IMG/VR virus record: IMGVR_UViG_3300037116_000299
Coordinates: 1-64,000 of that record
Source: a virus
Length of the DNA stretch: 64,000 nucleotides
Direction: 5' to 3' (one strand)
Part shown: in pieces, positions 1,401 through 60,380 of the stretch
Numbering within the stretch: the stretch's first letter is position 1
How the letters are laid out: every line of letters starts with the position of its first letter
Position numbers and translations under genes: made by a program
Notes under the pieces: generated by a model
Told to the model about the DNA's origin: nothing
Databases searched by the model: none
What the model saw: the letters and a program-made list of their open reading frames with translations, nothing else

Positions 1401-3938
1401 TCACACTCTCCCTACCACGGTGTCGTAGAGCCCGTAATGTCTGAGATCCTTGTGGCTCTCGATGCCCGTATACCTCAGCGACGCATCCTCGTAGCGACGG
1501 AACGCGAACACCGCCTGATTCATCTGTTCGGTATTGAATACCTTGAGGCGCACGAGCAGATGGAAGTCCTTCACGGTCAGACCGGTGACGGCCAGGAACA
1601 AATCCGGCTCCAGCTTGGTGATCACGTCTTGTAGCGTGTTCTCGCGGAAATCGGTCAGGTACATAAACGCAGGGATGCGGGTCGCGAACTTGATCAGCTT
1701 TTCTTGTACGAGCTTGCGCTTGGACTTGTATTCCTTCTCTTCGTCTGTGAGCTGCTGCTTCTGTTTCTCGGTCAGTTCCTTGCCTTTGGCCTTGCCCTTG
1801 AGTTCCTTGACCTCCTCGCTCTTGTTGATGATGGTTTCGATGACATGATCTCCCAGCGCGCGCCAGCCCTCGATACGCTCTACGGCTGCCATCGCCTCGG
1901 GGTTATCAAGGATTCGGCGCAGCGTGTCGTTGTCCACGTTCACCAGCAGTGCGCTCTCCCATTTGCGCGCAAGCAGCGTAGCCGAGGTGCCTGCCATCGC
2001 GATGTCCAAAATACCGCCAGCATCGATTTGAGTCATGTTCGCGCCGTCGTAAGCCAGTACCGGCAGGAACGACACCAGGTCCTTGACGGCTTGTTCCGGA
2101 TTCGACTCGTTAGGCGAGAGTCCGATGCCGTATTCGCAGAGTTGCCTAAGCGCGCGCGTAGGTGCAAAGTCGAATACGAAGCACGCAGGTTTGAGGATTT
2201 CTTCCTCATTCGGATTGTCACCATTCGGGTTCATGATGGACCACGGAGACTGCACCCGAAAGGCTGCCTGGAAGTAGGTTTCAGGGCTCTTCAGATTGCG
2301 CAGCATGAGGATCGAGGACCATTGCGACACGGTCACGCCGGTGGTGAGTTTGCCGCATGACAGTGTGATGGTTTTGGTCGTGAACCCGCTCCCAATGGCT
2401 TTGCGTACCGGAGGCAGCGCCTCCAGGCCGATACCCGCCGACGCGCCAGCCGCCACGACAACCTGGTACTCATGCCAGAAGATGTTGTGCTTCTCAGCCA
2501 GCAGTTTCGCCATAGCGTGACATGCAGCGACGTTTGGCAGAAACCAGAACGAGTGCTGTAGGTACGGCAGAAGCCGCACATCCGAGTAAGGGAACGGCGG
2601 CGAGCCCGTCTTGAGGCCATCCACAATCTTCGGTGCGTACTGGCCTCGGATGATGTCCAGCCACTTTTGTACGTCGCTTTTGTGCTCGAACTGCGCGGCC
2701 TTTCCTGTGCCTGTACCCGCAAAGAACTCGTTGAGGTCGAACTCGTCGAACTCCCCACCGCTCGCTACCGTTAGCAGTTCGTCCGGCATCTGGTAGGTAA
2801 GCAGACGCATCTGCGGCAGAGCACCATAAGAGTTCCACTTGCCGGGACTCCTAACGGCGAATTCTTCCTTGGCGCGCTGTTCGTCGGTGTAAGTCCAGTT
2901 GAAGATTTGTTCTTCAATGAACTCGCCTGTTGCCAGCGCCTTGAACGGTGTTCCAGACAGGTAGAGATAGGCTTTCGTCGTGATGGGAAGGAACTCGGTT
3001 TCCTTCTCCGAAAGCACGCCGAGGTCTTCGTTCACATCTTCCAGCGCGGGGGCGTACTCGAGCTTAGACTCTTTCTTCGCAACGGCCTCTTCCTCGCCCT
3101 CAAACAGTTCCTTGGCGGTCTCCCGCCAGGCTCCGAAGTGGTATTCGTCAAACACAACGAGGTCCCAATTTACGGCGTGCAGCCATTCGTTTCTCGCTTT
3201 GATATTTCCCACCGCATCGCGACCCAGGAGGTCCTGAAAGGAACCGAAATAGACAACCGGCTTCTTGTCGTCGATTTTGGTGGGGTCGCTGTTGGAACTA
3301 CGGGAGAGATAATGCCACCCGTCAAAATCGGCATGGGATTCGAGATCGGTCTGCCATGCGTCTTCTACCGCAGGTTTGAAGGTCAGCACCAGCACACGCG
3401 TGACGCCAAGCTTCTTCGCTAGCTGGTAGGCCGTGAACGTCTTGCCGAAGCGCATCTTCGCGTTCCACAGGAAGCGCGGGACCGCATGCTGATCCTCAGA
3501 CCAGATCGAGTGAAAATAGTCGAATGTCTTGTCGACCGCCTCGGCCTGTTCACGACGCATCCGAAATGTCTGGTCGTGCGTGCCGGTGAAGTGTTGTCCC
3601 GTGCGCAGCTCGGTGAGCACGGTCTTCACATCCTTGACCGTGCAGCGCACCCATTCCAGTTCGGCGTTCTCGAACTTCTTCCTGATGAGCGCCGCGCGAA
3701 CCTCGTGGTCGCTGAAGATGGTTCCGTCGTCGCGCTCAGCGGGTTCGTCCACTTCGACGGTGAAGTTCTTGATGGCGGCGGTCTTGAGCTGCTCGGCGAC
3801 GCGCTGTTTCACATTGCGCGTTGTCTGCCCAACCTTGAGAAGACCCTTGTGCGCATTATCGTCGATCGAATAGGCGTAGATACGCGGCCAAGCATTCGGC
3901 TTGGGCGCAAGGATTTCCTCGATGGTTGGCTTACTCAT
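1401..3938 (-). CDS. GIY-YIG nuclease / SF2 helicase restriction subunit
   Basis: Likely the DNA-translocating and cleaving subunit of the restriction-modification operon. Residues about 20-60 form a GIY-YIG (T5orf172-like) domain, with IYAYS and LKVGQTTRN matching the two sheet motifs. A superfamily 2 helicase follows: P-loop NAKMRFGKT near residue 163, DEYH box (VVFDEYHFGAW) near 264, motif III LYLSGTPFKAL, then a RecA2 half with TGVTV and an Arg-finger-like segment (AAFRVQSPW). The C-terminal third is Lys/Glu-rich. ATG at 3938 is preferred over a GTG at 3944; the gene overlaps the end of the upstream methylase by 8 bp, implying translational coupling. About 845 aa, intact. Restriction by this exact subunit order is inferred. 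Confidence 0.8.
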   Translation of the reverse strand: MSKPTIEEILAPKPNAWPRIYAYSIDDNAHKGLLKVGQTTRNVKQRVAEQLKTAAIKNFTVEVDEPAERDDGTIFSDHEVRAALIRKKFENAELEWVRCTVKDVKTVLTELRTGQHFTGTHDQTFRMRREQAEAVDKTFDYFHSIWSEDQHAVPRFLWNAKMRFGKTFTAYQLAKKLGVTRVLVLTFKPAVEDAWQTDLESHADFDGWHYLSRSSNSDPTKIDDKKPVVYFGSFQDLLGRDAVGNIKARNEWLHAVNWDLVVFDEYHFGAWRETAKELFEGEEEAVAKKESKLEYAPALEDVNEDLGVLSEKETEFLPITTKAYLYLSGTPFKALATGEFIEEQIFNWTYTDEQRAKEEFAVRSPGKWNSYGALPQMRLLTYQMPDELLTVASGGEFDEFDLNEFFAGTGTGKAAQFEHKSDVQKWLDIIRGQYAPKIVDGLKTGSPPFPYSDVRLLPYLQHSFWFLPNVAACHAMAKLLAEKHNIFWHEYQVVVAAGASAGIGLEALPPVRKAIGSGFTTKTITLSCGKLTTGVTVSQWSSILMLRNLKSPETYFQAAFRVQSPWSIMNPNGDNPNEEEILKPACFVFDFAPTRALRQLCEYGIGLSPNESNPEQAVKDLVSFLPVLAYDGANMTQIDAGGILDIAMAGTSATLLARKWESALLVNVDNDTLRRILDNPEAMAAVERIEGWRALGDHVIETIINKSEEVKELKGKAKGKELTEKQKQQLTDEEKEYKSKRKLVQEKLIKFATRIPAFMYLTDFRENTLQDVITKLEPDLFLAVTGLTVKDFHLLVRLKVFNTEQMNQAVFAFRRYEDASLRYTGIESHKDLRHYGLYDTVVGRV

Positions 3939-5610
3939 CGTCACCGATAACCGCCGAGTCGTGCGCGTTGCCAGTGAGATCCATCGGGCGAATCATCCAC
4001 TCAACAAACGCGATCTCTTTATCAGTTAGGCCATACTTCGCATAAAGCCTCTGATCAGTCCACTCCTTAGAGAAATTCTGTATAGGAACAAAGGTATAAA
4101 CCTTCTTTGTTGCGTCTTGAGCGGGCTTGTGCAACATCACCAAGAAGCGCGTCAGCTTGCACGAGATATAAGAGCAAACATTCTTGGCTTCACTCTCCGA
4201 CTTGAACGGGCCGATACAGAGGTAGGTTTCCGTTGAGACCGATCCAGGTTCGCCAACAAAAGGCCGACCGAGAACTGCCTTTGGCGGTGCATCTCGGCTT
4301 GCCCCGCCACCGCCTCGGTCGCCATATGCCCTCCCAATGAATACTTTCCATCCTTCAATCAAGTTGCCTTCGTCAGTCACATCGCTCCTTGAGACCCAGC
4401 CCTTGCCGCTTTGCTTGAACCCTGGGCCGCCGTTCCAGTAGGCGACGACATCGTTCTTCTGTCTGTTCGAACGAACTTTGAAGTTCGAGCGTATGCCAAA
4501 GGGCCTACTGGCTCTCACTAGATTCGTGAATCGTGACTTCTCCGGTATTAGAACGGAAGCGGCCTCCCCGCCTTCCACGGCAACAATCTTCTTCAAGATC
4601 GGCACTGCCTCGTTGTAGCGGATGAACACATCCGAGCCTTCCTCCAGCAAAGGTCGCGTGGCGCTCGATAGCACCGTACCTTCGTAATGCGTGACAACCT
4701 CGCAATCACCCGGCTCCTCGCGATTCCAGAGGAAGTAAAGAATGCCGCCCTGAATAGCCACGCCGGGAAAGGCTTCGCCGACCAGCAGGTAGTCATGAAT
4801 GGCGCGGGTGCGGCTGTCGGTCAGCATGCTTTCGCGAAACTCATCCAAACCTTTTCCGCCCGCAAACCATCGTGCGGGGATGACCAGCGACAGATAGCGC
4901 GGTTCGAGCTTCTTTGCCTGTTCCACAAAGAGGTGATAAATCGGTGCGGCACTAGCACCTTGCCCACCGTCGGCAAGTTGGTACGGCGGGTTCCCAACAA
5001 TCACGTCAAACTGCATGTTGCCTCCAAACAACTCGGCAATCCGAGCCTTGATGTCGTCCGTGTGGATGAACGCATAAGCGTGGGTCTCTATTCCCTCGCC
5101 GCGGTCCAGGACATCCTTGCTGGCACCGCAAAAGCTGCACCTGCCGTTAGCCCAGGAATGCTCGGTACGCTCGAACCAGATATTACCCTCATCGCTGTCA
5201 AAGCTCTTGGCGATGGAATGCTCCCCGGTCGCGTGCTTTGAGCAATAGAGGCTGCGCCGCGCGAGCAGGCTGGTGAGTCGGGTGGTGCCAACGCCGAACA
5301 CCTGCCGCGTCAGGATATGATCGACGCGGCTCTGGAGATCAGGTATCTCCGCTTCCAAACCCCTCGTGAGACGGCTGGTGATTTCGCGAAGGAATACGCC
5401 CGATTTTGTGCACGGGTCAAGAAACCGGATTGAACTATCCGCCCAGATGTCCGCCCCGCCATTGTTTGCTGCCCAAGTCTCGGCCAGTGTATCGAGCATC
5501 AGGTTTGCAAACTCAGGCGGTGTGAACACCTCGTCGTTGGATAGATTAGCTATGCAGGTCAGAACATCCGGGTTGCGCCCGCGAAGCGTAAAGCTCGCCT
5601 GATCGTTCAT
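3931..5610 (-). CDS. Eco57I-type N6-adenine DNA methylase
   Basis: A SAM-dependent DNA methyltransferase predicted to protect host DNA. Near residues 28-40 it has the EVFTPPEFANLM opening typical of class gamma N6-adenine methylases, then motif I (FLDPCTKSGVFL, residues 63-74) and the catalytic motif IV GNPPY near residue 207. A Cys-rich insertion (CSKHATGEHS then CSFCGASK) may bind zinc. The C-terminal half, with its FTNLVRASRPFG and FIGRAYGDRGG segments, is probably target recognition. It overlaps the short methylase-like gene upstream by 4 bp (ATGA) and the helicase gene downstream by 8 bp, so the three are one operon. 559 aa, no frameshift seen. Confidence 0.85.
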   Translation of the reverse strand: MNDQASFTLRGRNPDVLTCIANLSNDEVFTPPEFANLMLDTLAETWAANNGGADIWADSSIRFLDPCTKSGVFLREITSRLTRGLEAEIPDLQSRVDHILTRQVFGVGTTRLTSLLARRSLYCSKHATGEHSIAKSFDSDEGNIWFERTEHSWANGRCSFCGASKDVLDRGEGIETHAYAFIHTDDIKARIAELFGGNMQFDVIVGNPPYQLADGGQGASAAPIYHLFVEQAKKLEPRYLSLVIPARWFAGGKGLDEFRESMLTDSRTRAIHDYLLVGEAFPGVAIQGGILYFLWNREEPGDCEVVTHYEGTVLSSATRPLLEEGSDVFIRYNEAVPILKKIVAVEGGEAASVLIPEKSRFTNLVRASRPFGIRSNFKVRSNRQKNDVVAYWNGGPGFKQSGKGWVSRSDVTDEGNLIEGWKVFIGRAYGDRGGGGASRDAPPKAVLGRPFVGEPGSVSTETYLCIGPFKSESEAKNVCSYISCKLTRFLVMLHKPAQDATKKVYTFVPIQNFSKEWTDQRLYAKYGLTDKEIAFVEWMIRPMDLTGNAHDSAVIGDDE

Positions 5611-23229: not shown

Positions 23230-23616
23230 CTAAACCCTCCATCCTGCAGCCGGAGCTTCTGTCTCGGCCTGTACTGCATCTGCCACGACGACCTGGGCAG
23301 GTTCCTCGATGACCAGAGCCACCGGCTCTGCCACCACAACTTCACCGACGGCGGCGATCTCCACGGCGGGTTCCGCCGGCAGATCCACTTCACCGGCGGC
23401 CGGCAACTGGATCTCGAGGCCGGTCTCGTCGAAACGAGTCTCGAGCGGGTACGAGATGATGTTCTCGGCCCTATGACCGGTCACCTTCACGAATGCCGCT
23501 TCCATGCCCAGCTCAACCACCATGTCTTCGGGGACTAAGACCTGGTTGCCGGTCCCCGTATACTCTCCGCCTGCAAACGACGGATCGAATTCCACCTTAT
23601 AGTTCAGGTTCTTCAT
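23230..23616 (-). CDS. Hypothetical acidic Ala/Val/Glu-rich protein
   Basis: 128 aa. The N-terminal 60 residues are ordinary mixed sequence (YKVEFDPSFAGGEYTGTGNQ); the remainder is a low-complexity run of Ala, Val, Glu and Pro (VGEVVVAEPVALVIEEPAQV), probably extended. No assignment. ATGA overlap with the methylase-like gene. Confidence 0.55.
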   Translation of the reverse strand: MKNLNYKVEFDPSFAGGEYTGTGNQVLVPEDMVVELGMEAAFVKVTGHRAENIISYPLETRFDETGLEIQLPAAGEVDLPAEPAVEIAAVGEVVVAEPVALVIEEPAQVVVADAVQAETEAPAAGWRV

Positions 23617-24467
23617 GACTTGCTCTCCATTAGCGGGTGGCGAATGCTGTCCCGCACTTCCAACCCGCAGGGTGTCTTCTTCGTTCCGAAGAAGTGATCA
23701 GGAAAGGGCCTGACCAGCCATGGCACGTAGAGCGCGCCGTTGATCCGGGAGACATCGACCATTTGGGGATCGATATCGCAGCCGTACAGCCTGAGCGAGT
23801 AGTTCGAGGCGTGCAACAGCATGCGGCCGGTGCCTACACACGGATCGCATACCGTCTGCGACCTCGACACCTCCTGAGGAATGCCAGTGAAGTTCATCTG
23901 AACCATGAAATCCACCACCTCATGCGGCGTGGGAAAGAAAGCGTTGGGGTTCCAGGAACCCTTGTGGCCGGCGATCCAGGATCCGAAGTAGTCGTACGGT
24001 TCGAGCAGGAATGGTCCCAGGTTGAAGGTCCGATACAGGAACTCCTGGACATCCTCCGCCAGCGCCGGCACGGCCTTGTTCAACCCAAAGCCCCAGAGCA
24101 ACCAGTCCAGAAACGTCTGCACCGGACTGGTCACCTGGTTCGCCAGGCGGTTGATGATCACATCGAGCTGCTTGTAGGCAGCTGTCCGATCGACACCGCC
24201 TGTAGGGCCAAACCTGACCTGTGGAATAGGATCGGCCAATATGCGTCCGGCTTCCATACAGCGAAACCAGTAGGTCCACCGGCCGGTCGCATCAGGATGG
24301 GTGTCCGACAGCATAAGGTAGTAGGCCAGCCATCCGCGGTACGTCCAGGGCTTGCGGGCGTCCTCGATCAGAGGGACTCGCCCGCGCGCCTTCACGAACT
24401 GCGACCACTCGCAGTCCTTGATCGGAATCACCAGGTCAAATAACGAAGGTTGTGTTGCTGTAGCCAT
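23613..24467 (-). CDS. N6-adenine methylase-like protein without NPPY
   Basis: 284 aa. Residues about 175-245 look like the SAM domain of type I N6-methylases: FFPTPHEVVDFMVQMNF, motif I VCDPCVGTGRMLLHAS, and motif II-like LYGCDIDPQMVDVSRINGAL. No [DNS]PP[YFW] catalytic motif follows; the chain ends 40 residues later. It therefore binds SAM in principle but may not methylate DNA by itself. The N-terminal half is a helical phage-type domain. It may act with a partner, be a regulator, or have a diverged motif IV. Confidence 0.7.
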   Translation of the reverse strand: MATATQPSLFDLVIPIKDCEWSQFVKARGRVPLIEDARKPWTYRGWLAYYLMLSDTHPDATGRWTYWFRCMEAGRILADPIPQVRFGPTGGVDRTAAYKQLDVIINRLANQVTSPVQTFLDWLLWGFGLNKAVPALAEDVQEFLYRTFNLGPFLLEPYDYFGSWIAGHKGSWNPNAFFPTPHEVVDFMVQMNFTGIPQEVSRSQTVCDPCVGTGRMLLHASNYSLRLYGCDIDPQMVDVSRINGALYVPWLVRPFPDHFFGTKKTPCGLEVRDSIRHPLMESKS

Positions 24468-42411: not shown

Positions 42412-43368
42412 TTAGGCCTTCGCCCAGATGTCGGCTTCAACAACCTGGACACCCCAGTCGTACTTCTCCGGTCCCAGCGCGATCCAGCCTGGGTTGCCGA
42501 GCGTTGGTACGATCCGGTGATAAGCAGCATTCATGCAGTCGGCCATGATCTTCTTGACCGGCGGGATATGATCCTGACGGACGTGCATGACAATCTCGTC
42601 ATGTACGACCAGGAGGAACCTGGCATCGTAGATGAGCGGCGCCGTAAACGACCCGCCACGTACAGCCTTGTAGATCTCCGGCATCGCCATCTTCAGGATG
42701 TCGGCATTGCCGGCCTGAATTGGCATGTTGCCGGCCCACCGCTTGATCTGAGAGAGCAACTCCTCAGCTTCCGGATCCCCGGCGGCTGGCAGTTGGTAGA
42801 ACCGCTTGCGGCCGCGCGGGCTGGCGCTATAACCCAGCTCGATGGCCAGACGGCCCTGGTTGTCCAGCCAGGCCTTGAGAACCTTGAAGGTGCAGAAGAA
42901 CTCCTCGATGAAGTCTTTGGCTTCCTCGACGGTCATACCCGTCATCAGAGCCACCCGAGTGGGGCCTGCCCCGTAGGGAACGCCAAAGGTCACAGTCTTG
43001 ATGCGTGACCGGATCAGGGCGAGTTCGTTGTGGCGGGGATGGCTCTCGGTGCTGCGAGCCTCCTCCATCTCTTCGTAAGTAAACTTGAAGCGGGCGCCAA
43101 ACACCTTCGTTGCATTGAAGGTGTGAACGTCCTGTCCGGAGTTGATGGCGGCGATCAGGATGGGATCTCCCGAAGCGTGCGCCATCAGCTTTACTTCGAT
43201 CTGCGCGTAGTCCGAGGCCAGGATCTTGTAGCCTTCGTCGGCCCGGATTGCCGAGCGCGGGTCGGGGACTGACCACTCCAGGACGTTCGTCTTGAAGTTC
43301 CAGAAATAGGACTTACCTGCAAAGTCCCCGACCTTTTCCCGCTCAACCAACACTGCTGCTTCTGCCAC
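42412..43368 (-). CDS. Family A DNA polymerase, palm/fingers subunit (split polA)
   Basis: 318 aa, GTG start with AGGAG six bases upstream. It contains the whole catalytic half of a PolI-type polymerase: motif A ILASDYAQIEVKLMAH (Asp53), motif B IRSRIKTVTFGVPYGAG (Arg120, Lys124, Tyr132) and motif C LLVVHDEIVMHV (His256, Asp257, Glu258), ending in a DWGVQV-type C terminus. The 3'-5' exonuclease and thumb are in a separate gene at 44373, four small genes upstream. The first 45 residues are new sequence that may join the two subunits. No intein or intron endonuclease is present between them. Confidence 0.85.
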   Translation of the reverse strand: MAEAAVLVEREKVGDFAGKSYFWNFKTNVLEWSVPDPRSAIRADEGYKILASDYAQIEVKLMAHASGDPILIAAINSGQDVHTFNATKVFGARFKFTYEEMEEARSTESHPRHNELALIRSRIKTVTFGVPYGAGPTRVALMTGMTVEEAKDFIEEFFCTFKVLKAWLDNQGRLAIELGYSASPRGRKRFYQLPAAGDPEAEELLSQIKRWAGNMPIQAGNADILKMAMPEIYKAVRGGSFTAPLIYDARFLLVVHDEIVMHVRQDHIPPVKKIMADCMNAAYHRIVPTLGNPGWIALGPEKYDWGVQVVEADIWAKA

Positions 43369-43371
43369 GAT

Positions 43372-43803
43372 CTACTCCTGTGGTTCGTCGTCCCCGCGGT
43401 AAAGGCCTTCTTCTCCGCCGTTCTCATCTACCTGGCGTGCCTGTTGTTCCAGGGAAGCCCGTTGAACCTTCATGGCGTTGCGCATGTCACCTTCACTGAA
43501 GGGACATTCAAAGATCAGCTCGCCGCTTTCGCGGTAAGCAGCCCACACGGGCTCGCGCGCGATCGCCGGGAACTGTTCAGCAGCTTCCTGCATCAGGAGG
43601 ATGAAAGAGATCTCGGCATTGGCTGCGTCGATCTGTCGCTTGCGATCGGCAATGGCCGACTTACGGGCAGACGCTACAGCCAGCTCACGCTGGACCTGCA
43701 GTTCTTCGTAGCGCAACTCCAGGGCGGACTTGATCTTGTCGTCTTCGAGTTCAGATAGGCGTAACCGCAGGGGCTTGAACGCCCGACGCTTGGAATCACT
43801 CAT
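43372..43803 (-). CDS. Hypothetical coiled-coil protein between polymerase halves
   Basis: 143 aa, mostly long helix (LELRYEELQVQRELAVASAR, DRKRQIDAANAEISFILLMQ). Acidic tail. It lies directly before the polymerase palm gene (3 bp gap) and is coupled upstream by ATGA. Might bridge or regulate the split polymerase; no direct evidence. Confidence 0.6.
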   Translation of the reverse strand: MSDSKRRAFKPLRLRLSELEDDKIKSALELRYEELQVQRELAVASARKSAIADRKRQIDAANAEISFILLMQEAAEQFPAIAREPVWAAYRESGELIFECPFSEGDMRNAMKVQRASLEQQARQVDENGGEEGLYRGDDEPQE

Positions 43804-43973
43804 AGTTCTTTCTCCATGTCTTGGTGCAGAGCCTGCACCAGGTTGTTGTCGTACCTATCCGGGGCGTGGTAAGCCCCAAGAGCAGCCACAACGAGGGCCG
43901 CGGTACGATGGTTGAGGGTAAGGACCATGTCCCCTGAAGGGGATTTGCATCCCACATAGTTGGGACTGGTCAT
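43800..43973 (-). CDS. Small hypothetical protein (57 aa)
   Basis: MTSPNYVGCKSPSGDMVLTL then NHRTAALVVAALGAYHAPDR and a helical acidic end. Both its start and stop form ATGA overlaps with neighbours, a strong sign that it is translated. Function unknown. Confidence 0.6.
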   Translation of the reverse strand: MTSPNYVGCKSPSGDMVLTLNHRTAALVVAALGAYHAPDRYDNNLVQALHQDMEKEL

Positions 43974-44152
43974 GACGGGCGCACCTGGGTCTCCAGGCGT
44001 TCCGCCACGGCGATTGCAGCGTCATCGTCCGGGGAGAGAATAGCCAGAGCATCGGCGACCAAGTCGGCCGTCTTCTTGTTCATGATGAGAGTGGTTACCT
44101 CTCCCATCTCGACCACGCTCCACTGGAACTTCTTGTGCGATTCCACATTCAT
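43970..44152 (-). CDS. Small hypothetical protein (60 aa)
   Basis: MNVESHKKFQWSVVEMGEVT followed by LIMNKKTADLVADALAILSP, a compact beta-then-helix protein. ATGA overlaps with both neighbours. Third of four small genes between the two polymerase genes. Confidence 0.6.
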   Translation of the reverse strand: MNVESHKKFQWSVVEMGEVTTLIMNKKTADLVADALAILSPDDDAAIAVAERLETQVRPS

Positions 44153-44370
44153 GCGGCTACCTGCTCTCGCAACAGCGGAGCAATCTCGGTGGTCGAGACT
44201 GGGTTCTCCGACGAGCCGTCCCAGACATGGACACGAAGTTTGCCTTCGTAGACCTCGATGTAGATCTGGGAGGGGAAGTTGGGATCCGTATCTGGAGAGT
44301 CCCTGAATCCGCGGACTCCTATCTCCAGACCTTCAGGGCCGGTTCCAAGGGTGTCTAATTCAATGCGCAT
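44149..44370 (-). CDS. Small hypothetical protein (73 aa)
   Basis: Beta-rich: IELDTLGTGPEGLEIGVRGF, then QIYIEVYEGKLRVHVWDG. Directly follows the exonuclease/thumb gene (2 bp gap) and overlaps the next by ATGA. No family recognised. Confidence 0.6.
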   Translation of the reverse strand: MRIELDTLGTGPEGLEIGVRGFRDSPDTDPNFPSQIYIEVYEGKLRVHVWDGSSENPVSTTEIAPLLREQVAA

Positions 44371-44372
44371 CG

Positions 44373-45797
44373 TTAGGCAGCCTCCTTGAGCTGCTGGCTT
44401 TCGACGGCCAGGCGTTCTGCACGCATGGCTGCGATCTGTGCTCCGAATGCCGACATGACATGCTCGATCTCTTCGGGCCGGCGCACCGGGGCGTACAGCT
44501 CCTTCGGCTTCGGAAACTGCTGTGCATCAGAGCTGAAGCGTCCGGTCGCGATCGTGGCCTTGTCTTCCCCGCCACTCTTGCGTCCTTCTTCTTCCCCTGA
44601 GCCCAGCTGCTTGAAGCGAGGGTGCCACTTGCCGGTGTGCTGGTTGATCTTGTCGACCATGTTGGTGCCGTAGGTCGAGGTCATCTTGGTGACGTTCGAG
44701 AACTCGGCCATCAGCTTGCACATCTCGCGCTGTTCCGGAGAGAAGTCCTTGCCCTTGACCTTGTTCTTGGTGACGTCCTTGAGGGTGTCGCGGCGAATGT
44801 CATCGAGATTGATATCGATCTCGCGCAAAGCGGCCAGCTTCTCGGCGTTCGACTTGAGGTTGAATACCGAGTCCAGTCCGGGGATCAACGATCCAACCAG
44901 ACTTCCCTGCTGCTTCTTCATCGCCGTGAACAGCTTGAAGATCTTCTCGCCGAGGTCGGACTCATGCTGCGTCCAATACTCGATGATCTGGCGCATGATC
45001 GGCACGCTCAGGTTGACGCCGTGGATCTCCATCTCCGCGGTGGGGAAGATGACATCGAACTCATCCCTGGCAGTGTCCAGAAGCTGCCACTGTTTCAGCA
45101 GCTTAGACTGGTCCTGCATCAGCGGGAACATCAGCACGATATCCCGGGCAGAGTAGTACGCCATGCTGCGCGTCAGCTTCCTCCGCTCGTCATCGAGACC
45201 GATGAACATGTCGCGTACGGCCTTGTTGATCAACCAGTAAGGCTCATGCCGGCGAACGCAGTCCGCCAGGCCTACCTTCATGGCCAGAAGCCCGGCAACC
45301 AGGATCTGTTCGGCGAGCATGGAGCAGTAAACCCGCTGCATGTGGACGCCGTACTTGACCAGGAGCCACTTGAAGTCATAGATCGCGTTGTGCAGCAGGT
45401 GTAGGAACTTGTCCGACTCCAGCCACGCTTTGAACTCGACCACCAGGTCGGGATCGATCAGATAGACCTGGTCCTCGTTGCCGATCTGGAACAACACCAT
45501 CCGGGTATCCGGATTGACCGGGTTCATCGAATAGCCCTTGTCGCCCTTGACGGTGCGGCCGGTGGTCTCGGTGTCGATTCCATGGATCCGGATGCGGTCC
45601 AGGAACTCTTTAATTGGGGCCAGGTCTCCAGTCGAGGTGACCTGGATGACCTGGTTTTGATCCCAGGCCCCAGGTTCCCACGCACTTTGCAGCCAATCCG
45701 GCCGGCCAACGATGCGATAGTTCACTGGAACGTGCATCTCCAGTGGAGTACACACCGGACCACGGGAGTGACCGCTACTGCGTCCTCTAGGTGCCAT
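44373..45797 (-). CDS. Family A DNA polymerase, exonuclease/thumb subunit (split polA)
   Basis: 474 aa. A proofreading exonuclease with all three motifs intact: IHGIDTETTG (Asp75, Glu77), LLHNAIYDFKWLL (Asn137, Asp141), YYSARDIVLM (Tyr215, Asp219). A helical thumb follows, then the first polymerase-core motif TGRFSSDAQQFPKPKELYAP (residues 418-437), equivalent to TGRLSSxxPNLQNIP of PolI. The protein then ends in 35 helical residues, before motif A, which is on the separate gene at 42412. The start codon overlaps the thymidylate kinase stop (TAATG). The split point is clean, between core motif 1 and motif A. Confidence 0.85.
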   Translation of the reverse strand: MAPRGRSSGHSRGPVCTPLEMHVPVNYRIVGRPDWLQSAWEPGAWDQNQVIQVTSTGDLAPIKEFLDRIRIHGIDTETTGRTVKGDKGYSMNPVNPDTRMVLFQIGNEDQVYLIDPDLVVEFKAWLESDKFLHLLHNAIYDFKWLLVKYGVHMQRVYCSMLAEQILVAGLLAMKVGLADCVRRHEPYWLINKAVRDMFIGLDDERRKLTRSMAYYSARDIVLMFPLMQDQSKLLKQWQLLDTARDEFDVIFPTAEMEIHGVNLSVPIMRQIIEYWTQHESDLGEKIFKLFTAMKKQQGSLVGSLIPGLDSVFNLKSNAEKLAALREIDINLDDIRRDTLKDVTKNKVKGKDFSPEQREMCKLMAEFSNVTKMTSTYGTNMVDKINQHTGKWHPRFKQLGSGEEEGRKSGGEDKATIATGRFSSDAQQFPKPKELYAPVRRPEEIEHVMSAFGAQIAAMRAERLAVESQQLKEAA

Positions 45798-51680: not shown

Positions 51681-52781
51681 CTAGTTCTCCTCTTCGTCCG
51701 TTGTTCCCTGCTTGAACTTCAGGGTGTTGATGTCGTCTGCCTTGTCCAGCTCGCCCTCGCGCGAACCCAGATAGACCGGCTGATACAGCGAGCCACCGGG
51801 GTAGGCATAGAGATAGCGAACCTCGATCAGATCACCCTCGTTCGGGATACCAAAGTTGGGGAGGATGGTGACGTTGCCGACACCCACCAGTTCCTTGCCG
51901 TTCTCCATACCCAGCACTACGCTGCGCTTGCCATCGTTGATGGAACGCACGAAGCAGGTGCAGCTCTGAACGAACTTGAACTTGAGCTGATTACCACCGC
52001 TATTCGGGCGACCAGGGACGTAGGGCGCGCCGCGGCGCTTGAATACCACGCCCTCTGCCCGCTGCTCACGAAGCCGATTGTAGGCAGAGCGTTTCGACTC
52101 CCGGCCGCGGAAGGTGAAGACCCTGCAGACCTGGGGATACGGCGCCATCTTGTCCTCGGTATCGAAGAAAGCCGACAGAGCGACCTCGCGCGAGACAACA
52201 TCTTCCTGAGTGAGATCCTGGCCATGAAGCGACAGGATGTCGAACAGGAAGTAGGTGTCGCCAACGGCTTCGCCATCGAGGACTGCTGACTTGTCGCCGA
52301 GACGATCCTTCAAGCGCTGTTCGATGAAGGTGGAGATCGGAACGATCAGGCCCTTGCGGTTCGAACCCGTGATCACTTTGTTGGCAGCCTCGGTCATCAG
52401 CCGGACGCCGTCCTTCTTTTCCTGCATGATCCAATCGTCGTCTGCAATCAAGCGCTCAACCATATCCTCGTCGATGGCATTGAGCAGCTGGGGCACACGG
52501 CCGGATACCTGGCCGGCAAGCTCGGTGCCTGCGTAGGGCGTGCCGTCTTCGCCAGGGGTATAACCCTTGGCGGTCTTCTCAGCAACCAGCTTGAGGTAGA
52601 TCTTCTGGGCCTTGTCCTCGTCGACCGGACTGGCGGTCTTGGTGCCGGTCTGTAACGTAGAACCGCGGCGGCCGTATTGGAAGTTGACGACGAATCCGCC
52701 ATCTGCCTTCTCAATTTGAGCGTGATAGACCTTGTCGCTACCACCGTCACGGTAGTAGAGACTCGTTGTTTGAACTGACAT
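51681..52781 (-). CDS. WGR-domain ATP-dependent DNA ligase
   Basis: 366 aa. Residues 5-70 form a WGR domain (VNFQYGRRGSTLQTGTKTAS), a nucleic-acid-binding module normally in PARPs and some ligases. Ligase core: QEKKDGVRL with the adenylated Lys122 (KKDG), SAVLDGEAVGDTYFLFDILS (motif III), AEGVVFKRRGAPYV (motif IV), GGNQLKFKFVQS (motif V), then an OB-fold (GVGNVTILPNFGIPNEGDLIEV). Seals nicks using ATP. A second ligase is at 55618. Confidence 0.85.
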   Translation of the reverse strand: MSVQTTSLYYRDGGSDKVYHAQIEKADGGFVVNFQYGRRGSTLQTGTKTASPVDEDKAQKIYLKLVAEKTAKGYTPGEDGTPYAGTELAGQVSGRVPQLLNAIDEDMVERLIADDDWIMQEKKDGVRLMTEAANKVITGSNRKGLIVPISTFIEQRLKDRLGDKSAVLDGEAVGDTYFLFDILSLHGQDLTQEDVVSREVALSAFFDTEDKMAPYPQVCRVFTFRGRESKRSAYNRLREQRAEGVVFKRRGAPYVPGRPNSGGNQLKFKFVQSCTCFVRSINDGKRSVVLGMENGKELVGVGNVTILPNFGIPNEGDLIEVRYLYAYPGGSLYQPVYLGSREGELDKADDINTLKFKQGTTDEEEN

Positions 52782-55617: not shown

Positions 55618-56841
55618 CTACTGTTTATCTGGACGCATGCGGTGGAAGACCGGGAACTTGAGGCTGTTCTTCTCCGTGATGCCCTTGTGCTTGACCTCGA
55701 CGACCTTGCCCACCAGCGTTCCGGCCTGGAACTCGACCCAGAGCGCGATCCGTTCCTTGTTGTCGAAGCCGGTACCGACCTCGCTGGTCACCGTGACGGT
55801 GGGAAAGACGCTCTGGCCGATCAGGTCAGGAGCGATGTTGCCATCGTCCTGCAGGAAACCAAAGACCATGAGCCCGCCCAGCATGCCGGCGCATTTACCC
55901 CGGCCCTCGTAGGCACCCTCGATCTTGAAATCGCCATCCTTCATGTCGGCGATGAAGTCACCCGTAAACTCGGGCTTCCACTTCAGCCACACGCCGGACT
56001 TGCGATATTCGTAGAGGCCGTCGGCACGCTTGACAACGATGCCTTCCTTGCCTTTCTCGATGACCTGGAGACGGGCATAATCGATGATGTTCTCGAGGGC
56101 GCCCTCCTCGTACGGATTCTCCTGGATCTTGCAATCTGGACCGTTCACCTTCTGAATGAGTGTGACGATCTGCCTCAGATTCACCTTGCGACGAGATAGA
56201 AGGTCCCTGCATGTCGTGGCATCAAACTCTGCTTTCGGCAGAACGTCCCAAACCTTGTAAACGAAGCCCTCGGCTTGTGGATCGTCCTCGTGCAGTCGGA
56301 GCAGTCCGCCGGCTGCATTGAAATCCAGGGTCAGATGGACAATCTCTCCATCGAGCACAATGTCGTCACAGGACTCGTACGCAGCGGCCGCGGCTTCAAG
56401 CTGTGCTTGGATAAACCGCACGTTATGGTGAGGCAGGCCCGTTGACGTCAAAAGCTCGGCTTTCCCGTTCTTGATATGAGCGGGGCAGCGGTAGCCATCT
56501 TCCTTGGGCTCGAAATAGACCCAGGTCCAGTCTTTGGGCGGTTTCGCAGGGTCATAGACCTTGCAGAGCTGGATGCCTTCACGCTTGCGGCGGACCACGA
56601 CAGGACCCTGCTTCAGGAGTGCCGGCCACGGCGTTTCAGGGCTGCAGTCCATCGGGATTGTCATAGGGGCATCACCGAAACACGCCCGGACGTCGGCTCC
56701 GGCCTGCGCCAGGGACTGAAGAATGACCTCCTTCACCGGCGAAGAAGGTGCTCTCAGTACGATCTCGTCATGTACTGTGGCGACCACATACTGCTTCAGA
56801 TCTTCCGGTATGCAATCAAACAGCGTTGGGTTCGTGTTCAT
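55618..56841 (-). CDS. ATP-dependent DNA ligase with N-terminal PolI motif-C remnant
   Basis: 407 aa, ATG with AAGGA four bases upstream. Residues 1-70 match the C terminus of a family A polymerase: EDLKQYVVATVHDEIVLRAP contains motif C (His24-Asp25-Glu26), and APMTIPMDCSPETPW matches the VPL-V-D-x-G-x-NW ending. From about 105 it is an ATP-dependent ligase: YFEPKEDGYRC (Lys113), IVLDGEIVHL, EGFVYKVWDVL, EGIVVKRADGLYEYRKSGVW and LKWKPE (motif V), then an OB-like domain ending KNSLKFPVFHRMR. A second ligase (51681) is nearby. The remnant lacks motifs A and B, so it cannot polymerise. Confidence 0.8.
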   Translation of the reverse strand: MNTNPTLFDCIPEDLKQYVVATVHDEIVLRAPSSPVKEVILQSLAQAGADVRACFGDAPMTIPMDCSPETPWPALLKQGPVVVRRKREGIQLCKVYDPAKPPKDWTWVYFEPKEDGYRCPAHIKNGKAELLTSTGLPHHNVRFIQAQLEAAAAAYESCDDIVLDGEIVHLTLDFNAAGGLLRLHEDDPQAEGFVYKVWDVLPKAEFDATTCRDLLSRRKVNLRQIVTLIQKVNGPDCKIQENPYEEGALENIIDYARLQVIEKGKEGIVVKRADGLYEYRKSGVWLKWKPEFTGDFIADMKDGDFKIEGAYEGRGKCAGMLGGLMVFGFLQDDGNIAPDLIGQSVFPTVTVTSEVGTGFDNKERIALWVEFQAGTLVGKVVEVKHKGITEKNSLKFPVFHRMRPDKQ

Positions 56842-56995
56842 CGGTTCCTTGGTATTGCCGGATCAGCGCCGGTTCGGGGTAAGTGCAATGACACTGAATG
56901 AAGATCGCGGCATCCCAGGGAGTGGTTCCACCTGAGTCGGCTGACCCTGTCCCGTGACAGGTCAAGCAGTCGGGATCAGGCTGGATCGTCGTCAT
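56816..56995 (-). CDS. Small zinc-ribbon-like protein (59 aa)
   Basis: MTTIQPDPDCLTCHGTGSAD then FIQCHCTYPEPALIRQYQGT; CxxCxGxG and CxC resemble half of a DnaJ-type or small zinc ribbon. A GTG nine bases upstream is also possible. It overlaps the ligase fusion gene by 26 bp. Confidence 0.5.
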   Translation of the reverse strand: MTTIQPDPDCLTCHGTGSADSGGTTPWDAAIFIQCHCTYPEPALIRQYQGTDEHEPNAV

Positions 56996-57158
56996 CTTCG
57001 CCACCCACGATCACATCGACCGTATAGGTCTGCTTGCCATCGACGACGATGCCTTCTGTTGGGCCGTCCGTTTCCACGTCGATGTCTTGCACGTAGTTCA
57101 CACCCTTGACGAATGCTTCAGCTTCCGCCAGTGAATCGAATACGTTGGTTGATCTCAT
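56976..57158 (-). CDS. Small acidic hypothetical protein (60 aa)
   Basis: MRSTNVFDSLAEAEAFVKGV then a beta-rich middle and a DDDDPA end. AGGAG lies four bases before the ATG. The frame is open upstream to 57491, but that region is non-coding leader and another gene. Function unknown. Confidence 0.55.
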   Translation of the reverse strand: MRSTNVFDSLAEAEAFVKGVNYVQDIDVETDGPTEGIVVDGKQTYTVDVIVGGEDDDDPA

Positions 57159-57280: not shown

Positions 57281-58006
57281 CTACATCATGCCGAGACCCT
57301 TCGCCTCGCGATTCTCCCTGGCCTCTACGGCCAGTTCGGTAATGCGGTTCTGTTCGATGAACTCGCGCTTGAAGTAATCGAGCGCGCGCTCTACGACCGC
57401 GTTCTTGTCCATCGAAGGCTTCTTTACCACCCAGACCGGATCGACCATGCAAAAGACCGGAACGCCCGGCAGGTACGAAGTCTCGAACCACTGGGCATCG
57501 TGGGTCTTCGCCTTCGGCTTGTCGTTGGGCGTGTCCCCGGTCCCCAGCAGGGCGGACGCGGCCACCCAGCCCAGGGCAATCACTGCCTTGAGATTGGGCA
57601 TGGCGCGCAGGACGCGCAGGCAGCGTGGGCCAAAGCAGGCCGAGATCTCGGTGGCTTCCGGCTCACGCTGGATCTCCTCGATTCCCTTCTTGACCTTGGG
57701 AGGCATGCATTGAATCACCGAAGTGATGAAGACGTCTTTCTGGGTGTCCAGACCGATGAGCTTCATCCACTGCTCGAAGGCGCGGCCGTGGGCGCCCACC
57801 AGGGCGACACCTCGTTCGCTCTCCGATTCGCGCGGAGCCTCATTGACAAAGGCCAGCTCGGCGAAGGGATTACCGCGGTAGATGAAGCCGCGGTTGTAAG
57901 GATGGAGCATGCTGAGGCGGCAGTTCTGACAGGCCGAGGAGATCGACTTGATCACCTCGGCCACGTCTTCCTGCTCGACCTCAACGCTATCGAATAAAGT
58001 TGCCAT
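57281..58006 (-). CDS. Family 4-like uracil-DNA glycosylase with altered motifs
   Basis: 241 aa. Cys26, Cys29, Cys100 and Cys124 fit the 4Fe-4S cluster of family 4/5 UDGs; FITSVIQCMPPKVKKGIEEI and ACFGPRCLRVLRAMPNLKAV with IALGWVAASALLG match the rest of the fold. But motif A, normally GEAPGxxED, is VNEAPRESES, and where HPS is expected near the end I read FCMVDPVWVVKKP (Asp189-Pro190), so the usual His is missing. It may remove an unusual base, bind uracil-DNA, or be inactive. Confidence 0.65.
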   Translation of the reverse strand: MATLFDSVEVEQEDVAEVIKSISSACQNCRLSMLHPYNRGFIYRGNPFAELAFVNEAPRESESERGVALVGAHGRAFEQWMKLIGLDTQKDVFITSVIQCMPPKVKKGIEEIQREPEATEISACFGPRCLRVLRAMPNLKAVIALGWVAASALLGTGDTPNDKPKAKTHDAQWFETSYLPGVPVFCMVDPVWVVKKPSMDKNAVVERALDYFKREFIEQNRITELAVEARENREAKGLGMM

Positions 58007-58164: not shown

Positions 58165-59391
58165 TTACTGCCAGACGGGCATAATGACGTACCGCGACTC
58201 GACAGCATCGTCGACATCGTCTACGACCAGGCCCTTGTTGAACTTGGCCTTGTCGTTGTAGTCGTGAATGCCAATCCGCAGTGTCTCCTTTGAGGAAGTG
58301 CTGGCTGCATTCTTGAGGTAGTCGAGGTTGACCGTGACCTTGACGTCCAGGTTCTCCGGCACACCTGCTTCCAGCGTGATCGGCATCTCGTCCGAGATAT
58401 CCGACACGTTCAGCTTGTTGTGGGCCGAGATCTTCAGCGTCTTGCCGTAGATCTCAAGGTGAGCCAAGCGGGCATCGTCGAAAGCGGTGACGCGGCCGAG
58501 GATCTGGCACAGCTCCTCGCGGTTGACGGTGAACCAGTAATCCGGCACGTGCATGTCGATGGTTTTCCCGATATCCGGGAACTTGCCAATCAGCAGGCGG
58601 GTACCAAAGAACGTGTCTTCGCCCATCCGGAAGAAGAGCTTGGAAATGTCGCCGGTGGCGTTTCGTGCGCCCTCGATAACACGAACGTCCTCTTCCTTGC
58701 GCACCAACTTGGCGAGCGAAGGCAGGGCCACGTCCGGGATCAGGATGTTCTCCATCTCCTTGGGACCCTTCTGGCCCTTGATGACGATCCGGGCGCAAGC
58801 GTGCGCATCGGTCGCATGGGCCTCGTAGCCACGGTCGGTAGACACCAGCTTCATGCCGCTGAAAGCAAAGCGCTGGGTGGCCTCGTTCTCGCGTGGGATA
58901 CAGAACTGTGCCCGGCGCACGAACTCGTTCAAATCCTTGCCCTTGACCGTGTAGCTGGGCGCTTGCTTGAACGGAATGGCATTCATCCTGGAAGCCATGA
59001 TGTCGGTTCCCTTGGAGTCGTAACCCAGGTGGAAGACGTTACGACCGATCTTCACCCGGATCCGGGAAGGCTTGTCGCTGCTGCCGGCCTTGCCCTTGCT
59101 GGGCGAGACCAGTTCAATCTCGGCGAGATCGCCAGGATTGCGGCTCTGCAGCCCGGCGCGGAGCTGATCCGGATCAAGCAGGGTCATGCCGGCCATTTCA
59201 ACGGTGGCCTGAAGCTTCACGGTGGACTCGGCAGTGATGTTGGTCGAGTACAGGAAGACGGCAGACGAAGTCTCGGTCTTGTGGACCGATACGAAGATGC
59301 CGCCGGTGCCTGCATCCTTCTTCTTATCGATGGTCGCTGAGACCTTGTTGACGGCGTCGAGTAAATCGCCGGCTTTGACACTGAACTTCAT
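58165..59391 (-). CDS. DnaN-type sliding clamp (beta)
   Basis: 408 aa. Three-domain beta clamp: N-terminal MKFSVKAGDLLDAVNKVSAT, middle FAFSGMKLVSTDRGYEAHAT with DAHACARIVIKG (the VATDGHRLA-like motif), and C-terminal IHDYNDKAKFNKGLVVD and SRYVIMPVWQ, matching the usual YVIMPMR ending. Encircles DNA and tethers the polymerase; partner of the clamp loader at 53797. Some insertions (SPSKGKAGSSDKPSR) distinguish it from chromosomal DnaN. Confidence 0.8.
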   Translation of the reverse strand: MKFSVKAGDLLDAVNKVSATIDKKKDAGTGGIFVSVHKTETSSAVFLYSTNITAESTVKLQATVEMAGMTLLDPDQLRAGLQSRNPGDLAEIELVSPSKGKAGSSDKPSRIRVKIGRNVFHLGYDSKGTDIMASRMNAIPFKQAPSYTVKGKDLNEFVRRAQFCIPRENEATQRFAFSGMKLVSTDRGYEAHATDAHACARIVIKGQKGPKEMENILIPDVALPSLAKLVRKEEDVRVIEGARNATGDISKLFFRMGEDTFFGTRLLIGKFPDIGKTIDMHVPDYWFTVNREELCQILGRVTAFDDARLAHLEIYGKTLKISAHNKLNVSDISDEMPITLEAGVPENLDVKVTVNLDYLKNAASTSSKETLRIGIHDYNDKAKFNKGLVVDDVDDAVESRYVIMPVWQ

Positions 59392-59537: not shown

Positions 59538-60380
59538 TTAGGCTGCCTTCTGTTCGACCAGGCGCTGTTCTGCTTCGGGCGTAACCTGAGCATTGCGGCG
59601 TTTCTTCGAGCAGGCGGCACAGAGGGGAACCCCGTACTGAGCCTGGCTGCGCAGGAATACGTCCCAGAAGTGGAGCGAACGCTTGTTGTGCTGCGCGTCC
59701 TCGTATTCCACCGTCACGATCGGATCGGTGCACTCCGAGCAGTCCTTGGCCGGGTACGCCCAGTCAGGAATCTGAGGCTGATCGGTCCAGCACTTCTTGA
59801 TGGAGTTGTACTTGCACTCCTGGGTGGGAAATGCGTACAAATACCGGCCTGGACCCCATTTGGACATCGCGCGCTTGTAGGCCTGCGCCTCTGCCGTGGT
59901 GATCCAGTTGCCGTCGGCCGTATCCTTGGCGCCGGTCGAATCATGCCAGACCCAGCCGAGGACCGGACCCATCCAGATACCGACTCGAACTACGAGTCCA
60001 ACCTGGTAGGCGTTGACTTCCTTCGCCGGTTCCAGAACCCGGGCATTGCCCTGCTCGTCCTTGTTCTGCCAGTCCAGCCGGGCCTTGGCCAGTTTGGTGT
60101 AGGGCGCGATGTCGACGCGAACCACTTCGGACTGCCAGAAGCCTGGTCCGATGACGGCATCCATGCGTTCGGTGTAAACGCGCGAATCCGCATAGGCGGC
60201 CGCGGTAGCGACGCCGCTCTTGATGGTCTGCGGCAGGAAGTAGATGTCCTCGGGATTGAAAGGTTCTGCCAGGCTTCGCAGCGTTGCCTTGAAGTCCACG
60301 TGGTAGGCCGGGAGCGTGGCGCCCGGGAAAGCGAGTATAACCGGCGGCGCGGCCGCGGCTGTGGTGGGTTTGGTTGCCAT
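59538..60380 (-). CDS. Rad52-like single-strand annealing protein with zinc motif
   Basis: 280 aa. AAYADSRVYTERMDAVIGPG with FWQSEVVRVDIAPYTK is the conserved YVxxRxVxDRLDxVxGPxNW part of Rad52/Rad22, and AEAQAYKRAMSKWGPGRYLY the A-x-KRAx-R-FG segment. C-terminal CSEC and CAAC knuckles (about 214-260) suggest a zinc ribbon. It anneals complementary single strands; likely works with RecA and the Cas4-like nuclease. Confidence 0.7.
   Translation of the reverse strand: MATKPTTAAAAPPVILAFPGATLPAYHVDFKATLRSLAEPFNPEDIYFLPQTIKSGVATAAAYADSRVYTERMDAVIGPGFWQSEVVRVDIAPYTKLAKARLDWQNKDEQGNARVLEPAKEVNAYQVGLVVRVGIWMGPVLGWVWHDSTGAKDTADGNWITTAEAQAYKRAMSKWGPGRYLYAFPTQECKYNSIKKCWTDQPQIPDWAYPAKDCSECTDPIVTVEYEDAQHNKRSLHFWDVFLRSQAQYGVPLCAACSKKRRNAQVTPEAEQRLVEQKAA

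Follow-up and report, generated by a model that had tools for sequence, protein, structure and literature searches.

Bacterial LigD is a polymerase-ligase fusion that acts in end joining, and its polymerase part is a complete primase-family domain. As a rule, gene fusions bring together entire domains. In a whole family A polymerase (PolA), the C-terminal tail makes the motif C hairpin and the next helix and strand of the palm. T4 DNA ligase reportedly makes an unusual contact with the sliding clamp. Here we describe a phage gene in which what reads as a sub-domain part of the polymerase palm sits at the front of a ligase whose DNA-binding domain (DBD) is gone.

The source of the gene is a large bacterial virus. 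The window, by which we mean the whole stretch of DNA that was analysed, comprises positions 1-64,000 of IMG/VR record IMGVR_UViG_3300037116_000299, a viral contig of 214,300 bases. The preliminary description of the locus had credited the ligase with a good ribosome site of its own and with a frame shared with a full ligase. Both points were borne out: an AAGGA site precedes an ATG start, and the reading frame is open and intact. A small upstream gene (56816-57004) overlaps the start. The gene is laid out as follows.

55618-56841, minus strand: chimeric gene of 407 aa, PolA C-terminal tail with an in-frame ATP-dependent DNA ligase (open reading frame, family matches)
56846-56850, minus strand: AAGGA ribosome-binding site, ~5 bases before the ATG (sequence)
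56809-56841, minus strand: residues 1-11, MNTNPTLFDCI, outside the PolA match, which starts at residue 12 in the profile; putatively like a sliding-clamp-binding peptide
56626-56808, minus strand: PolA C-terminal tail, residues 12-72 (matched to 67 by profile and library; 68-72 by position only)
56764-56775, minus strand: polymerase motif C, VHDE, residues 23-26, intact (sequence, alignments)
56575-56625, minus strand: linker from PolA tail to ligase core, residues 73-89, without a DNA-binding domain (DBD profile)
55969-56574, minus strand: ligase nucleotidyltransferase core (Pfam PF01068; KEDG 113, LDGE 163, EGIVVK 266, WLKWK 285)
55621-55944, minus strand: ligase OB-fold domain (Pfam PF14743, residues 352-403; model strands)

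Around the gene lies a replication cluster with a clamp, a uracil-DNA glycosylase (UDG), a clamp loader, RecD, ribonucleotide reductase, a split PolA and a second ligase. At the far end of the window (1401-5610, minus strand), a T5orf172/ResIII protein and an adjoining Eco57I-type methylase form a restriction-modification-like pair.

The ATP-dependent ligase takes up residues 90-406 (PHROG 114, E=6.8e-53; Pfam PF01068, DNA_ligase_A_M, 3.4e-12). PF01068 and PF14743 both scored above cut-off, and the marks of the ATP-dependent DNA ligase superfamily were found, namely the KxDG lysine motif, motifs III, IV and V in order, and an OB domain. A full-length structure model (mean pLDDT 81) matched solved DNA ligases (E=2.5e-22). 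With its catalytic motifs intact, the enzyme most likely works as a ligase that seals nicks.

What, then, precedes the core? Our tree includes 20 ligases in addition to the two of the window, and 17 of them have a DBD in this position, among them the closest one, L029 (32% identity); L037 and L051 have none, and RpAliso has a different N-terminus. Support within the tree is poor, and the chimeric ligase forms a long branch in it. The second window ligase (51681-52781, minus strand; 366 aa) has an N-terminal WGR domain (PF05406, E=1.5e-9), and the sole phage match covering most of that protein is to Tunturiibacter phage Tunturi_5 (33.5%). A known ligase N-terminal domain at the head of the chimeric gene would be at odds with the polymerase ancestry proposed for it earlier. 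We ran a profile of the ligases' helical DBD on residues 1-85, and it returned -0.0 bits, no match; this candidate was rejected, and the proposed ancestry stands. Nor does the protein have the DBD-bearing architecture of SPO1/T4-like phage ligases. Because nearly all related phage ligases examined have a DBD before the core, and it is absent here, we conclude that the polymerase tail occupies the place of the helical DBD.

The N-terminus by itself (residues 1-78) was searched against polymerase families, as had been suggested, and the informative matches in Pfam, PHROGs and NCBIfam were to polymerases at motif C. PHROGs returned four families, all DNA polymerases aligned at motif C (best E=0.0027); NCBIfam returned three, all PRK14975 polymerases (best E=0.0052); Pfam returned DNA_pol_A at motif C (E=0.11) and one spurious family. 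In the best NCBIfam match, residues 19-67 aligned with positions 500-548 of the 557-position NF011538 model, equal lengths on both sides; the score fell far short of the 389-bit cut-off set for the whole protein, as that of a fragment should. A phmmer search of the PDB found no polymerase at E<=10. The single-model E-values are weak, yet they concur on polymerases. Motif C and the tail are all that the reading frame holds of a family A polymerase, so that the full set of motifs A, B and C is not present.

Because single library E-values are weak and post-hoc picks can mislead, we built polymerase profiles for the purpose. The general profile was made from 18 phage PolA tails, none picked for likeness to the ligase segment. 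The segment scored 22.9 bits against it; the best of 200,000 shuffles scored 12.9. When the profile was run on 1,394 open reading frames of the window, the true PolA piece (E=1e-17) and the ligase (8.7e-5) alone stood out, and among 13,439 open reading frames from 1.08 Mb the ligase (18.7 bits) was the sole non-polymerase above 9.7 bits. These general phage profiles back residues ~13-40 alone, about 28 residues. In residues 33-78 they gave no significant signal (shuffling tests, p=0.18 and 0.21), and in leave-one-out controls nearly all real PolA tails passed the type of shuffle test that the ligase segment fails. Other reading frames, searched for a frameshifted PolA continuation past motif C or for upstream PolA remnants, gave no match, and both were rejected.

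Profiles built from the tails of whole PRK14975-family genes of actinobacterial genomes matched more, spanning residues 12-67 and including significant residues outside motif C. When residues 33-78 were shuffled, the PRK14975 profile score was reached by 0.47% of controls in one test and by 0/3000 by HMM, and the end-to-end test gave p=0.0045; this was the third polymerase lineage tried, after the NCBIfam pointer, so that the p-values should be discounted roughly threefold. When 397 actinobacterial genomes were searched without bias for the 78 residues, the two best matches were PRK14975-type polymerase genes (E=2.6e-4 and 7.1e-4 per genome, over query residues 19-66 and 17-67), and polymerase C-termini were matched repeatedly over query residues ~17-67 in several of the genomes. 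One such tail, that of L140 (HLVYYLHDEIIVHTPAELADEVAVAVRESAADAGRLLFGEFPVDFPLDLS), aligns to the ligase tail at 35%; the best fit is to the actinobacterial PRK14975 type, at 33-35% identity over ~50 residues. Homology to the PRK14975-type (NF011538) tail runs from motif C to near the C-terminus. Across the 214-kb record, NF011538 matched nothing but two stretches of the phage's own PolA piece and the ligase N-terminus.

Could the N-terminus instead be a new domain whose motif-C-like stretch arose by chance or convergence? Library E-values of just 0.003-0.1 from single models, and general PolA profiles that match ~28 residues alone, would be compatible with this. However, the PRK14975 match extends beyond motif C, polymerase C-termini were hit repeatedly in actinobacterial genomes, and the ligase is unique among the control reading frames. 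We consider this explanation improbable.

The preliminary description had equated residues 1-70 with the last 70 of a PolI. The library and profile matches uphold this for residues ~12-67. Residues 1-11 fall outside the match, and the "PW ending" is at the right distance from motif C but outside the stretch demonstrated to match, W72 being placed by position only. We read residues ~12-67 as a PolA C-terminus, probably extending to W72. At the level of sequence, we conclude that the first ~70 codons derive from a PRK14975-type family A polymerase gene, namely from its 3' end between motif C and a point close to the stop, and that the rest of the chimera is the ATP-dependent ligase core of a phage group that normally bears a DBD, missing here.

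Which polA supplied the tail? The phage's own PolA is split (42412-45797, minus strand) between two genes, one for exonuclease and thumb and the other for fingers and palm, which are separated by three small genes; the region at the split seems to be represented in both pieces, each in a version of its own.

42412-43368, minus strand: own PolA C-terminal piece with motifs A and C (VHDEIVMHV) (Pfam PF00476, E=1.4e-46)
44373-45797, minus strand: own PolA N-terminal piece, 3'-5' exonuclease and thumb (Pfam PF01612, 1.7e-9; NF011539, 3.3e-29)

The segment had been assigned to a lineage other than that of the split polymerase, and we agree: the phage's own motif C is distinct, and its own pieces fit NF011538, the best model for the ligase tail, far less well than they fit the PRK05755 and NF011539 models. 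An internal duplication of the own polA 3' end might be suspected from a 14-base exact match, GTACATGACGAGAT, which includes the rare GTA codon and is common to the ligase tail and polA at 42593. However, the DNA likeness between the two is not above synonymous expectation (36% of resamples reach it), the own PolA pieces belong with other models, and the own tail differs from the ligase tail after the helix. Duplication within the genome was rejected on the DNA likeness, and we hold it to be extremely improbable. The 214-kb record yielded no second or donor polA. Since the phage's own PolA fits other models and the 14-mer is within codon and residue expectation, the donor was probably another polA, absent from the record.

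We suggest that illegitimate recombination joined a polA 3' end to the ligase gene and, in doing so, would have removed the polymerase body and the ligase DBD. The earlier proposal of a polA-ligase fusion followed by polymerase loss fits in that a PolA C-terminus sits in frame on the ligase core; a simple read-through is insufficient, because the ligase DBD is gone too. A full polA adjoining the ligase was sought in related phages; two Herelleviridae-like relatives have the two genes ~5-6 kb apart, not side by side. In one Herelleviridae-like relative (L052, record G016), PolA (G016:C1:106063-108203) is broken in two, and its C-terminal match contains a single TGA.

The searches run on IMG/VR, GTDB and INPHARED revealed no similar fusion. 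Single-protein scans of viral contigs found no fusion relatives, a RecD scan for relatives found nothing, and the pattern VHDE..W..KxDGxR (GTG, GTA and GTC in viral contigs; GTG in genomes) found ordinary polymerases or chance frames only. The literature yielded no polymerase-ligase fusion of this sort. The fusion point is known from one contig, and an error of metagenome assembly that put a polA end onto a ligase gene would suit an IMG/VR contig for which no close relatives were found. The codon score of residues 1-75 is also atypical: at 0.031 it is under the 5% level of other genes (0.086) and clearly above wrong frames. Yet the two parts share one frame without a stop, the gene has its own ribosome site and a start that overlaps the upstream gene, and the fused piece is short, with replication genes of the same phage on both sides. 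Such an assembly artefact is very unlikely.

Over the tail (pLDDT 41-78), the full-length model places helix 13-18, strands 19-23 and 26-29, helix 34-46, and strands 49-55 and 58-61, with HD at the strand turn. This order of elements is much as expected of a PolA palm tail, at low to moderate confidence, and the model's alignment has no rows over the region. Foldseek on a separate model of the isolated N-terminus gave no match.

Polymerisation by the tail alone is excluded, because the other metal ligand and the template cleft are absent. We most favor the view, at a little under an even chance, that the gene is a fusion-born chimera whose tail persists as a small beta-beta-alpha module, substituting at least partly for the lost DBD; by conjecture, it would help to hold the ligase on DNA or at the replication machinery. 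That the tail now serves the ligase as a functional accessory module in place of the DBD, by gripping the nick on its 3' side or by docking on the replisome or clamp, for example, is rather doubtful.

The same fusion origin could also have left the tail as a relic, a passenger that supplies the start codon and ribosome site for a core that works without a DBD, as minimal ligases do. DBD-less ligases exist and work, with the minimal Lig E and the Chlorella virus ligase among the top structural matches; L037 and L051 lack the domain too, and the segment combines atypical codon use with low model confidence. Against this, motif C (YVVATVHDEIVLRAP) is still intact though it has no possible polymerase use here, the frame is open, and erosion or loss is what one would expect of a free passenger in a phage genome. 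We regard a relic as quite possible, and a tolerated relic is nearly as likely as a working module.

If the tail does persist as a module partly substituting for the DBD, the residues ahead of it may contribute. The phage encodes its own clamp.

58165-59391, minus strand: phage sliding clamp, possible partner of the ligase (PHROG 947, E=8.4e-33)

The adjoining gene (59538-60380, minus strand) encodes a Rad52/Rad22-like single-strand annealing protein (PF04098, E=2.9e-6). Residues 4-9 of the ligase, NPTLFD, resemble a QxxLF-type clamp peptide but without the Q; the PolA-derived part has no clamp peptide in it. The earlier idea of a deliberate clamp- or DNA-binding N-terminal extension gained no support. 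Among 286 called genes, 3 have [ST]LFD within their first 12 residues, where 0.05 would be expected from shuffles, one of the three being of a different fold. Three DNA-acting proteins, all on the minus strand, have it within their first 11 residues: an N6 methylase-like protein (23613-24467), which has QPSLFD; the ligase; and the neighboring family 4 UDG (57281-58006), which begins MATLFD. As a putative clamp-binding peptide ahead of the tail, NPTLFD is suggestive only; conjecturally, it might act on the phage's own clamp alongside the tail.

If the tail is functional, a fragment of a catalytic core can become a DNA- or replisome-contacting module, a compact design, and a working module would be a new way to build a replicative ligase. 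If it is a relic, the gene is a snapshot of shuffling among phage replication genes.

With the actinobacterial PRK14975 "bifunctional 3'-5' exonuclease/DNA polymerase" (NF011538), the phage protein has in common a C-terminal stretch of ~55 residues that starts ahead of motif C and takes in HDE and FG(D/E)xPxxxP; it has no exonuclease, thumb, fingers or most of the palm, and a ligase follows the tail. With the PHROG 114 phage ligases, such as SPO1 gp32.95 and that of Lysinibacillus phage LysYB1 (about 30% identity over the core), it has in common the core, the OB fold, the catalytic motifs and the replication-gene setting; whereas those ligases have a helical DBD of ~135 residues (GxTxxTINKV..IPxF), the window ligase has the PolA tail instead. 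Like T4 DNA ligase, it is a phage ligase in a replisome with the phage's own clamp, but it has no DBD, and a putative clamp contact would need another part, perhaps residues 4-9. Like bacterial LigD, it holds polymerase and ligase parts within one protein, but its polymerase part is a non-catalytic piece of a family A polymerase and not a complete primase-family domain.
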